Below, piece after piece: positions 15,366-32,086 of a stretch of DNA of 59,728 nt. Made by a program: the position numbers and the translations under genes. The DNA is from a virus: positions 1-59,728 of IMG/VR virus record IMGVR_UViG_3300042914_003096; one strand, 5' to 3'. The notes under the pieces are model-generated. The model had not been told where the DNA came from. It was given only the letters and a program-made list of their open reading frames with translations, and ran no database searches. Within the stretch, counting starts at the first letter, position 1. Every line of letters starts with the position of its first letter.

Positions 15366-15384
15366 AAAAAAGTTGACAAAGTAC

Positions 15385-15415
15385 TTGTCTAAATGAAAAA
15401 AAAGACATAACTTTG
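15385..15415 (+). promoter_or_regulatory. Promoter of the large non-coding RNA
   Basis: TTGTCT (15385) and TAACTTTG (15408-15415) are 20 nt apart, the same architecture as the promoter at 15126. No start codon opens a credible gene downstream, so the expected transcript, starting near 15422, is the structured RNA. Confidence 0.7.
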
Positions 15416-15421
15416 TAAAAC

Positions 15422-16477
15422 ATTTGAAACCTAAAGGTGATGAAAGACACTCGGAGTCAAATGTAAAAAAGAAAAACGTTCTTTGTTTTATAGGCCGACC
15501 GAAAGGTTGACACACATAAAAAAAGTGAATTAACACCTCCCTTTCTTTAAGTGTTTAAATTATTAGGTCAATGGGCCGTGTATGGTCCATCCACTTCGGT
15601 GGCTTCTAACCTTCGGGTTAGTTGAAAATAAACTACGAAAGTAGGATAAAGTGAATCAGAAGTGTAACTGATTTGCGTCTTGGGAAACCGAGGTCGAGTA
15701 CACAAGCGGGATACCGTTTAATCTTTAGTACCGAGGGCGACGCTGTAGGGAAAGTGGTTAGATGATTGGGCGATGTGGGTCGTCTGATTGAGGTGGGAAC
15801 ACCAATAGGAATAACCCGTAGGAATTTTGCAAAAAATGTGGTTATCCAATCATATTATTGCGAGTTCCAATATTAAAGGAGACTTAAAACCGAAAGGTAT
15901 GTTGATGTACAGGTGGTGCTGTTATTAACCTTGACCGTTCCCCACCAAGGGATTGATCACGAAGTAGTCTTAAAATATGGAGATGGGGACATTTCAGAGA
16001 GTAGTTGAGTATCGACTCGTTCAAAAGATGGGTTGGCTCGTGGGCGGACCACTACTTTCACAATCCACGACACATAACTTATGGAAACTATTAATTCCCA
16101 AATTAAAAAGAGCATTAAGGAAAAGTGTCCGTCAGGTTTGAATGAAAGGTGACTACATAGTAATGAGCCGTTCATTGCACACAAAGATCCCAAGTCGATG
16201 TGTAATTATCCGAAAAACCTTTAGTCCCGCAAGGACGAACTGGGGAGGCATCCTCGGAAAGAGTCAAGTAAGGTGAGAGTAGTTCAAACCTCAAGGAGTG
16301 GTTCACCTAAATAACCGTCACTGAGAAATACTTCTCAAAAGGAAGTGGATAAGAGTAGAATAAATAATGACTCTAAAGGTTCTCAATAAAACGTGTAATC
16401 TCAGCGTTCTTTTTAGGTTTAATCTTATAAGAAAAAAAAATTGATGGATGACGTGAAATTTGTTATCCATTTTTTTG
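15422..16477 (+). ncRNA. Large structured non-coding RNA, about 1.05 kb
   Basis: No plausible gene occurs between 15366 and 16508, although the rest of the genome is tightly packed. The stretch is visibly richer in G and C than its surroundings and full of stable hairpins. Examples are ACATTTG/CAAATGT closing a small junction (15419-15464), CGACC-GAAA-GGTTG (15496), CCAC-TTCG-GTGG (15590), CTAACC-TTCG-GGTTAG (15606), CTAC-GAAA-GTAG (15632), GCGTC/GACGC (15675/15738), GGTG-GGAA-CACC (15792), TCGTGG/CCACGA (about 16038/16066), AGGTGA/TCACCT (about 16270/16303) and GAGAA-ATAC-TTCTC (16323). UUCG and GNRA tetraloops recur. A TAnnTTTG promoter precedes it and an intrinsic terminator closes it. Size, phage setting and nearby tRNAs recall the ornate RNAs GOLLD and ROOL, but I cannot confirm membership. 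Confidence 0.75.
16444..16477 (+). terminator. Terminator of the large RNA
   Basis: Stem ATGGAT...ATCCAT, extended by AC/GT with an internal mismatch, is followed by seven T residues. Confidence 0.75.
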
Positions 16478-16496
16478 TGCCTTTAATTTTTTTTTA

Positions 16497-16504
16497 TATC
16501 TTTG
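16497..16504 (+). promoter_or_regulatory. TAnnTTTG promoter box 4 nt before a start codon
   Basis: TATCTTTG ends 4 nt before the ATG at 16509. The implied transcription start is at or next to the start codon. Confidence 0.6.
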
Positions 16505-16508
16505 ATGT

Positions 16509-19604: not shown

Positions 19605-19668
19605 GAAATCATATGGTGTAATTGGTTAGCACAATGTTGGTATGGGTTTGAATCCCATTATGGTTTCT
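19605..19668 (+). tRNA. tRNA-like RNA lacking an anticodon arm
   Basis: A 9-bp acceptor GAAATCATA/TATGGTTTC encloses a D-arm (GTG, loop with TTGG, CAC) and a T-arm ATGGG-TTTGAAT-CCCAT. Only a 9-nt linker joins them where the anticodon arm should be. A T-run directly after the 3' end may terminate transcription. It cannot decode codons. The acceptor/T stack resembles the tRNA-like domain of tmRNA, but no tmRNA body is present. Confidence 0.6.
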
Positions 19669-23284: not shown

Positions 23285-23356
23285 GGTCTCTTAGTTTAAC
23301 AGGAAAAATACGACTCTTGTAAAGTTGAGTTGTCGGGTCAGTTCCGACAGGGACCT
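23285..23356 (+). tRNA. tRNA-Thr(TGT)
   Basis: Acceptor GGTCTCT/AGGGACC and anticodon arm CGACT-CTTGTAA-AGTTG give anticodon TGT with U33 present. T-arm GTCGG-GTCAGTT-CCGAC has an atypical loop lacking TTCG. First gene of the tRNA array. Confidence 0.8.
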
Positions 23357-23368
23357 CAAAAAGAAAAA

Positions 23369-23385
23369 GTTCTTTGACATATTGG
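23369..23385 (+). promoter_or_regulatory. rRNA-leader-like GTTCTTTGACATATTGG element
   Basis: The same 15-17-nt element recurs at 27981 and, as GTTCATTGACATATT, at 29092, each time upstream of RNA genes or a terminator boundary. I recall similar sequence in Bacteroidota rRNA operon leaders and spacers. It may be an antitermination or processing signal. Confidence 0.4.
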
Positions 23386-23393
23386 CTTCATTA

Positions 23394-23477
23394 GGAGAGA
23401 TAATCACAGCGGCCTGTGATCCCGTCTTGAAAACGGTGAGTACCGAAAGGTATGGGGATCGACACCTCATCTCTCCT
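23394..23477 (+). tRNA. tRNA-Ser(TGA) with rigid hairpin in place of the D-arm
   Basis: Acceptor GGAGAGA/TCTCTCC, anticodon loop CTTGAAA (TGA) and a variable arm TACC-GAAA-GGTA identify a serine tRNA. In the D-arm position stands ATCACAG-CGGC-CTGTGAT, a perfect 7-bp stem with a 4-nt loop. It lacks the conserved loop GG that docks with the T-loop. The tRNA may be non-canonical or functionally altered. Confidence 0.7.
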
Positions 23478-23489
23478 CTGTAAATTGCG

Positions 23490-27980: not shown

Positions 27981-27997
27981 GTTCTTTGACATATTGG
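27981..27997 (+). promoter_or_regulatory. rRNA-leader-like GTTCTTTGACATATTGG element
   Basis: Identical to the element at 23369. Here it precedes a TAACTTTG box (about 28016) and the gene at 28029. Confidence 0.4.
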
Positions 27998-28219: not shown

Positions 28220-28311
28220 CACATAAACCTAAGTACCCATACCGCTGACGGTGGGCTAAGTAAGATACAATTTCGTACCGCGGGAAGTAGAATGCTTAGG
28301 AGTGTGTTTAT
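28220..28311 (+). ncRNA. Folded 5' leader of the tRNA-like region
   Basis: ATAAAC/GTTTAT and CTAAG/CTTAG form a long bulged helix around a hairpin CCCATACCG-CTGA-CGGTGGG. It ends where the first Leu-like RNA begins. Confidence 0.5.
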
Positions 28312-28411
28312 AGTCAGGTGGCGGAATTGGTAACAGTTTATGGGCTATTAAGAATGCTGGTAACGGTAGATAGAGAGATTCTTAATGCAGGTTCAAGTCC
28401 TGTCCTGGCTG
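28312..28411 (+). tRNA. Leu-like tRNA with remodelled anticodon domain
   Basis: Acceptor AGTCAGG/CCTGGCT, a Leu-type D region GCGGAATTGGTAA and T-arm GCAGG-TTCAAGT-CCTGT are clear. Between them a perfect 9-bp stem ATTAAGAAT/ATTCTTAAT with a 22-nt apical loop replaces the usual anticodon and variable arms. No convincing anticodon can be assigned. Confidence 0.55.
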
Positions 28412-28414
28412 CAC

Positions 28415-28554
28415 GTTGAGGGTTCATCACCCCATAGTGTGCCCCACACGATGAGAAACGAAGTGATGTTTCGTAGGGGAACGTACTTTGTCGTATAGGG
28501 AGAACGACTAAGAAAGTAAGTTGTACTAAGTACAGTGGAAACACACACCTCAAC
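28415..28554 (+). ncRNA. Structured RNA domain between two Leu-like RNAs
   Basis: GTTGAGG (28415) pairs with CCTCAAC (28548), enclosing a multi-branched set of hairpins: GAAAC/GTTTC, TACTTT/AAAGTA with inner GTCGT/ACGAC, TGTAC-TAA-GTACA and GTG-GAAA-CAC. No reading frame of note. Between 28555 and 28670 further pairs are CCCACC/GGTGGG and TAACACC/GGTGTTA. Confidence 0.6.
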
Positions 28555-28670
28555 AGAGATGGACTGAAAGTTCGCTTGACTGGGAAAGACGAAATGAACT
28601 ATTCCTAACCCACCTTTATGGTGGGGACAACCATAACACCTGTAAGCTGGATAAATGAGGGTGTTACTTT

Positions 28671-28784
28671 AGTCAGGTGGCGGAATTGGTAGACGCAAAG
28701 ATGTTGTGAGTTGGTAGGTAATAACTACTTGGATAGTATCCACACTAGAACTCTCAAATACAGGTTCAAATCCTGTCCTGACTA
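28671..28784 (+). tRNA. Leu-like tRNA with inserted helix around the anticodon arm
   Basis: Acceptor AGTCAGG/CCTGACT, D-arm GCG-GAATTGGTAGA-CGC and T-arm ACAGG-TTCAAAT-CCTGT are regular. The middle is about 30 nt too long. TTGTGAGTT/AACTCTCAA (one mismatch) encloses a small anticodon-like arm GGTAG-GTAATAA-CTACT and a variable-like hairpin GGAT-AGT-ATCC. The anticodon reading is uncertain. 114 nt in total. Confidence 0.6.
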
Positions 28785-28813
28785 CAAAAAAAAATAATTT
28801 TATATAAATTAAT

Positions 28814-31813: not shown

Positions 31814-32084
31814 GCACCCGTAGCTCAGCTGGAATAGAGCAACTGCCTCAAATAGGGGGTGTTATATCAGAAATGGTATAATAGAATTCATCAAATTCGG
31901 GGAAGCCTTTAAAATGGTAATCCCGAGCCAAGCCCGAAAGGGAAGGTGTAGAGACTTGACGGTGAACACCTAAGTTGTAAAAAATAAGGTGATGAGAAAG
32001 TCCAGACCACAAACAGAAATGGCAGTGAAAACTGTAGTGGGAAGTCTAAGCAGTAGGTCCTTGGTTCGAATCCAAGCGGGTGTA
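31814..32084 (+). tRNA. tRNA-Arg(TCT) interrupted by a group I intron
   Basis: The 5' exon 31814-31848 gives acceptor GCACCCG, D-arm TAGCTCAGCTGGAATAGAGC and anticodon stem ACTGC plus CT. The 3' exon 32045-32084 starts TCTAA-GCAGT and continues with T-arm CTTGG-TTCGAAT-CCAAG and acceptor CGGGTGT. Joined, the loop is CTTCTAA with anticodon TCT. The splice follows U33. Confidence 0.88.
31849..32044 (+). ncRNA. Group I self-splicing intron, 196 nt, no ORF
   Basis: Core elements appear in the right order: P-like AATTCGGGGAAGCC, Q-like AATCCCGAGCCAAG, R-like GTAGAGACTTGACGG and S-like AGAAAGTCCAGACC. The 5' exon ends in U and the intron in G, as required. An internal guide AGGGGG can pair with the exon end GCCT, with a U-G wobble at the splice site. 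The core resembles introns of bacterial and cyanobacterial tRNA genes (IC3-like), as judged by eye. Confidence 0.85.
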
Positions 32085-32086
32085 CA

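Follow-up and report, generated by a model that had tools for sequence, protein, structure and literature searches.

A GOLLD RNA of a probable Bacteroidota phage and its putative rRNA-type boxA leader

GOLLD RNAs are among the largest structured RNAs known from bacteria and phages. The cage that they can form has reportedly been suggested, in published work, to hold phage tRNAs or ribosomes. The solved GOLLD of env-38 is a hollow RNA cage, a 14-mer, in which loop L20 of one chain pairs with J13/15 of another and copies of L21a in the two half-shells pair with each other (PMC12286853). One GOLLD accumulates in lytic growth, an RNA of GOLLD size exceeds all other ICP1 transcripts in abundance, and GOLLD is dispensable in one prophage (PMC7567579). 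Furthermore, ribosomes were pulled down with GOLLD in work that is cited in PMC12286853. The second system of interest is the leader of rRNA operons. In this leader boxB is followed by boxA, and recruitment of the Nus complex requires boxA, which also suffices for it (PMC10250234). Here, we describe a GOLLD locus whose leader resembles that of rRNA operons.

Identity, extent and fold of the RNA

The window, i.e. the whole stretch of 59,728 nucleotides that was analysed, comes from a virus record, as expected for an RNA encoded in phages and prophages. RF02032, the Rfam family of GOLLD, matches its plus strand over the full length of the model (positions 1-416) with 333 bits, compared to a cut-off of 150. 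This model covers the 3' domain only. The RNA is firmly a member of the GOLLD family; a preliminary description made from the letters of the DNA had considered both membership in the GOLLD- or ROOL-type RNAs and a class of its own. It had also proposed a search with the models of GOLLD, ROOL, OLE and HEARO, of which only the first one matched. No other Rfam family exceeded its threshold at the GOLLD locus, and the identities ROOL, OLE, HEARO and raiA were rejected because their covariance models gave no match even at E-values up to 10. The features of the locus are compiled in Table 1.

Table 1. Features of the GOLLD locus and further putative boxA copies in the window
Feature	Position	Strand	Evidence or remark
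Promoter TTG-N20-TAACTTTG, Bacteroidota type	15385..15415	+	position; conserved in 12 syntenic relatives
Leader hairpin directly upstream of boxA, boxB-like position	15420..15464	+	fold z = -3.4; pairing kept among relatives
Putative boxA GTTCTTTGT (preliminary description: GTTCTTTG, 15478-15485)	15478..15486	+	conservation, cluster counts, match to rRNA leaders
Pyrimidine-rich element TTAACACCTCCCTTTCTTTA between boxA and 5' domain	15530..15549	+	conserved in relatives
GOLLD 5' domain, ~427 nt, outside the Rfam model	15570..15996	+	covariation in 56-sequence alignment
GOLLD 3' domain, 411 nt	15997..16407	+	full-length match to RF02032
Variable linker of the 3' domain, holds no tRNA here	16060..16116	+	model alignment and 56-sequence alignment
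Base of J13/15-like strand AAGG, pairs with 16190	16120	+	non-nested covarying pair
Partner base in L20-like loop (GATCCCAAGTC)	16190	+	non-nested covarying pair
Palindromic GC in CCCGCAAGG loop	16229..16230	+	self-complementary dinucleotide in 56/56
Intrinsic terminator GATGGAT...ATCCATT and T-run (stem-loop 16443-16471)	16443..16478	+	best terminator-like match of the region
Second putative boxA, 17-mer GTTCTTTGACATATTGG	23369..23385	+	25 nt before tRNA-Ser(TGA)-like gene
Third putative boxA, identical 17-mer GTTCTTTGACATATTGG	27981..27997	+	directly after terminator hairpin

The GOLLD body of approximately 840 nt lies within a unit of approximately 1.05 kb, whose extent was read from the sequence and which is presumably transcribed as a whole. 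Transcription is expected to start near 15420, and the putative cage-forming part of the RNA begins at about 15570. In the window, promoters of the TTG-N20-TAACTTTG type number 24 on the plus strand and eight on the minus strand, a bias that is expected for the Bacteroidota type. The spacer of the GOLLD promoter holds GTC...GAC and locus L018 has GAC...GTC there; this may be an operator dyad or a chance occurrence. Relatives retain the terminator, though its loop varies, and a new promoter (16475-16505) is located between it and a downstream gene for a protein of 136 amino acids. The clear promoter and the intrinsic terminator of the preliminary description were both recovered. Its interval 15366-16508 contains a real RNA, which however starts at about 15420, and the last 30 nt or so are the promoter of the next gene.

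For the 845-nt body, the folding energy is -243.1 kcal/mol, compared to -217.9 +/- 7.3 kcal/mol for 20 shuffled sequences (z = -3.4). In order to assess covariation, 56 related phage loci were aligned across both domains. The consensus fold comprises 219 pairs, 96.5% of the cells are paired, and 152 pairs display double changes, which is far above shuffled and slid controls. For the 5' domain, the corresponding values are 113 pairs, 96% and 82 pairs; its double-change cells number 921, compared to 226 with shuffled partners and at most 148 with slid partners. The structure of the 5' domain, which is absent from the Rfam model, is as well supported as that of the 3' domain, and the alignment provides this unmodelled part with a covariation-supported structure. 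As is characteristic of GOLLD, the RNA is longer than 800 nt and combines a conserved 3' domain with a less conserved but structured 5' domain, both of which covary. The loops include UUCG and GNRA, so that the impression of an RNA rich in stable stems with such tetraloops, as well as the conserved pairing sought in homologues, held up on closer inspection. Two tandem UUCG hairpins (~15590-15624) are an insertion that is unique to the window sequence among the 56.

Two sites of the 3' domain resemble contacts of the solved cage. Positions 16120 and 16190 form a Watson-Crick pair in all 56 sequences (31 G-C, 24 C-G, one A-U); this pair ranks 14 among all column pairs and is not nested in the consensus fold. 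By its position, rather than by means of env-38 coordinates, it was assigned to the putative intermolecular bridge B7 (L20-J13/15). The same kind of placement assigned 16229-16230 to the putative self-kissing loop L21a (bridge B8), whose dinucleotide is GC in most of the 56 sequences, with UCGA in L015 and L016. Because B7- and B8-type contacts are kept, formation of a cage of 14 copies is likely for the window RNA as well. Judged by alignment, the variable linker would face the cage interior, as it does in the solved env-38 GOLLD (PMC12286853).

The GOLLD of the window has no directly adjoining tRNAs. Fifteen tRNA genes are predicted in an array, the first one at 23285, i.e. about 7 kb downstream, and a single isolated Rfam tRNA match is found in between, at 19607. 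The location in phages near tRNAs, which the preliminary description mentioned for ornate RNAs of this size, therefore applies with respect to the phage and to an array in the window, but not in the sense of immediate neighbourhood. A group I intron (RF00028, 31839-32026, 80 bits) apparently interrupts the anticodon loop of a tRNA-Arg(UCU)-like gene (31816-32085). Another part of the window, 28230-28790, holds two tRNA-Leu-like sequences whose anticodon regions are odd; between them lie about 250 nt of noncoding DNA that looks structured and for which no Rfam family match was obtained.

Relatives were gathered by means of the neighbouring gene for a 616-aa protein and of a DNA signature that was first checked on known GOLLDs. 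Approximately 100 different GOLLD loci were collected, including L015 and L016 from genomes larger than 600 kb; the GOLLDs of Acinetobacter phages were found separately by BLAST. In one of these, phage Ab15 (L212, 3652-4503), the annotation places small hypothetical proteins, which are probably spurious, in the GOLLD region. GOLLD was absent from nine other phage contigs that contain the upstream gene and are fragments; it may not be universal in this phage lineage. RF02032 gave no match in 301 Bacilli genomes either, a result that carries no weight because only four candidates per genome were scored, and no similar DNA was found among PLSDB plasmids. The upstream 616-aa and the downstream 136-aa proteins belong to no informative family, and for this reason we do not propose a protein partner. 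Uncultured phages with genomes of 634-735 kb contain relatives of the upstream gene. Among the proteins encoded in the window are a PAS-histidine kinase, a thymidylate synthase, an SPFH protein and a chitinase-like lysin. The 59.7-kb window therefore probably stems from a phage of very large size, of which it would be one piece. Its host is probably a member of the Bacteroidota, as suggested by the types of promoter and boxA.

The leader and its putative boxA

Most can be learned from the motif that had initially, and rightly, been noticed as reminiscent of rRNA leaders. In the window, its ninth base is T in place of A, and nearly all relatives possess GTTCTTTGA. Among 12 syntenic sequences cGTTCTTTG is invariant, whereas the remaining leader varies. 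After clustering at 90% identity, 37 of 44 GOLLD clusters contain GTTCTTT(G/A)A in one short interval between promoter and 5' domain; at 95% identity, these are 61 of 69. By chance, 0.2 (shuffled sequences) to 0.55 (control windows) clusters would be expected at 90% identity, and 0.2-0.7 when both levels are considered. Coarse clustering yields 4/7 (75% identity) and 8/14 (80%), and all these counts refer to GOLLDs most of which were retrieved by one DNA signature and have Bacteroidota-type promoters. No boxA was found near the GOLLDs of Acinetobacter phages (L210-L212) or of the huge phage L015, all of which are located inside tRNA arrays. Because of these cases the motif is widespread among GOLLDs but not universal.

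The same motif precedes rRNA genes. Exact GTTCTTTGA is located 85-220 nt before 16S rRNA in about 17 of the 29 sampled Bacteroidota leaders, and several of the others contain GTTCATTGA or GATCATTGA. There is thus a strong case, drawn from sequence comparison, for reading the leader motif as a boxA, the signal for NusB-S10 in rrn-type antitermination. The sampled rRNA leaders themselves provide weak support for a hairpin ahead of boxA (24% compared to 8% of controls).

tRNA genes of viruses are marked in a similar way. In viral contigs, GTTCTTTGANATATTG occurs at 115 different places; at 28 of these a tRNA gene follows at a distance of 22-30 nt, compared to an expectation of about 1.1. At one further viral site (L417), the boxA precedes a GOLLD that adjoins the 3' side of a tRNA-Met. 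Viral tRNA arrays (L371, L383, L384, L411, L413, L419, L428, L434 and others) display, as a general feature, GTTCTTTGA(C/A)ATATTG at a fixed distance of 22-30 nt before their first tRNA. The tRNA-Ser(TGA)-like gene downstream of the second copy in the window (at about 23394-23478) is absent from the ARAGORN list; its spacing from the motif agrees with that in other viral tRNA arrays. Since GTTCTTTGACATATTGG occurs twice in the tRNA region and viral tRNAs carry the boxA as well, phages of this kind would mark stable RNAs with boxA. The presence of boxA on tRNA genes suggests that, for the phage, GOLLD ranks among the stable RNAs.

The leader hairpin of the window is of a long type, CATTTGA...GATGAAAGACACTCG...TCAAATG, with a conserved GATGAAAGAYACTC loop that is common to several other phages. 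Most relatives have a short hairpin, for example TCGGAAACGTCCGA or TCAGGAAAAGTCCTGA. The stems differ in sequence with pairing kept (CGGA/UCCG, CAGG/CCUG, CAGU/ACUG, UUGG/CCAA). Upstream of boxA, z is below -2 in 48% of 60 GOLLD leaders, compared to 7% of control windows. The conserved loop GGTGATGAAAGATACTCGG characterises a second, recurring hairpin type in the leaders of the window and of L247, L275, L240, L251, L217, L222 and L220, which are otherwise different phages. The pyrimidine-rich element downstream of boxA reads AACACCTCCCTTTC here and TTAACCCCCTTTTCTTT, AACCCCCTTTTC or AACCCCTTTTTC in other clades. A resemblance between AACACCTCC and the 16S rRNA 3' terminus was dropped, as other clades have AACCCCC at that place. 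By eye, no consistent complement indicative of a boxC or a leader-trailer helix was recognised in the compared leaders.

Proposed transcription and alternative explanations

We consider it quite probable that the window encodes a GOLLD cage RNA of a Bacteroidota phage that is transcribed with the rRNA-type NusB-S10 complex of the host. Transcription would start at the Bacteroidota-type promoter, and the nascent leader would expose the hairpin and then the boxA, which is the boxB-boxA order of rRNA leaders. The boxA would be read by host NusB-S10 together with NusA, NusG and probably SuhB. RNA polymerase could then make the long untranslated RNA like an rRNA, shielded from early termination and perhaps with its folding aided, and would halt at the intrinsic terminator. 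The ~840-nt body would fold into the 5' and 3' domains and, by homology, 14 copies would close into a hollow cage. By putting the same boxA on its tRNA genes, the phage would handle GOLLD as a stable RNA. We infer both the binding of NusB-S10 and antitermination at the GOLLD leader from the motif and its context. A wider proposal, which is tentative and somewhat doubtful, is that in Bacteroidota phages the boxA on GOLLD and on tRNA arrays recruits NusB-S10, which may prevent termination and hold the leader for folding and cage assembly, as with rRNA on its way to ribosomal subunits.

Other explanations of the leader have to be weighed. In most relatives, no more than about 10 nt separate the hairpin from the expected 5' end, as with 5'-protecting hairpins, and hairpin and motif might serve RNA stability or 5'-end processing instead of antitermination. 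This is rather unlikely, as a fixed motif of nine bases identical to the boxA of rRNA would be left unexplained. Alternatively, the boxA could be real but act as a sponge, such that abundant GOLLD captures NusB and S10 and shuts down host rRNA synthesis. Lytic accumulation and the top rank of a GOLLD-sized RNA among ICP1 transcripts (PMC7567579) would fit, as would the ribosomes pulled down with GOLLD in the work cited in PMC12286853. However, the boxA is part of the leader, which may be removed, and the same motif before the phage's own tRNAs fits expression better than capture; we judge such a sponge unlikely. It is very unlikely that GTTCTTTGA is a structural piece of GOLLD that pairs elsewhere in the RNA. 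The motif is strongly conserved and near the 5' domain, and there is complementarity between its UUUGAA part and the conserved UUCAAAAG loop in the 3' domain, but it precedes tRNA genes and 16S rRNA where no GOLLD is present, GOLLDs without it exist, and the region that corresponds to the solved 833-nt RNA does not include it.

Two further alternatives concern the RNA as such. The 136-aa gene is syntenic in the closest relatives, and the RNA might be a long leader that controls this gene instead of a free RNA. The conserved terminator and the new promoter in between, the insertion of about 2 kb between GOLLD and this gene in L022, L023 and L030, and the other genes or tRNAs that adjoin GOLLD elsewhere make this highly improbable. 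The chance that the stretch codes for small proteins is practically negligible. Reading frames reach 54 aa on the plus and 78 aa on the minus strand of the RNA, with a maximum of 146 aa in a single relative; those of the window are at about the level of shuffled sequence. Moreover, 147 of 169 indels relative to nine close relatives are not multiples of three, no long reading frame recurs at one place among relatives, and the conservation is explained by base pairing. Coding potential was rejected on account of the frame-breaking indels and the non-recurring frames; these data bear out the initial claim that more than 1.1 kb lack a credible gene, and the conserved protein frame that had been named as an argument against an RNA is not shared across relatives.

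The boxA leader, as opposed to the identity of the RNA, is the new part of the finding. Its novelty is probable: a literature search, which did not extend to the original description of GOLLD or to most of the subscription literature, found no publication linking GOLLD with boxA. The leader would tie the synthesis of GOLLD to the rRNA machinery and offers a first testable idea of how such RNAs are made, with NusB, S10 and SuhB as candidate proteins and a target of nine bases. A further suggestion is that, for phages, tRNA arrays and cage RNAs belong together in a single class of stable RNAs. In addition, the DNA signature finds metagenomic GOLLD genes efficiently.

Comparison with known systems

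The closest known system is GOLLD RNA (RF02032), including the solved GOLLD of env-38. The domains of the window RNA, of ~427 and 411 nt, correspond to domains of 420 and 413 nt in env-38 (PMC12286853), and the variable linker of the 3' domain, a B7-type pair and a palindromic L21a-type loop are kept. In contrast to GOLLD as represented by RF02032, including env-38, it has its own promoter, a leader hairpin and a putative boxA; there are no directly adjoining tRNAs and no tRNA in the linker, and two extra UUCG hairpins are found near the start of the 5' domain. ROOL, OLE, HEARO and raiA are likewise large ornate RNAs of bacteria or phages, and ROOL forms a cage, too; the window RNA differs from all of them by the missing match to their models up to E = 10.

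With lambda nut sites, the leader shares the use of boxA and a hairpin by a phage. It differs in that the hairpin comes before the boxA (rrn order), in that an untranslated RNA follows, and in that no N-like protein was identified. The leader of an rRNA operon is another counterpart. Both consist of a promoter, a hairpin and a GTTCTTTGA-type boxA that precede a long structured untranslated RNA, and the motif is that of the sampled Bacteroidota leaders, except for the ninth base in the window. By eye, no boxC or leader-trailer helix was recognised. In contrast to an rRNA leader, an intrinsic terminator follows after about 1 kb, and the RNA that this leader would drive is the presumed cage RNA of a phage.
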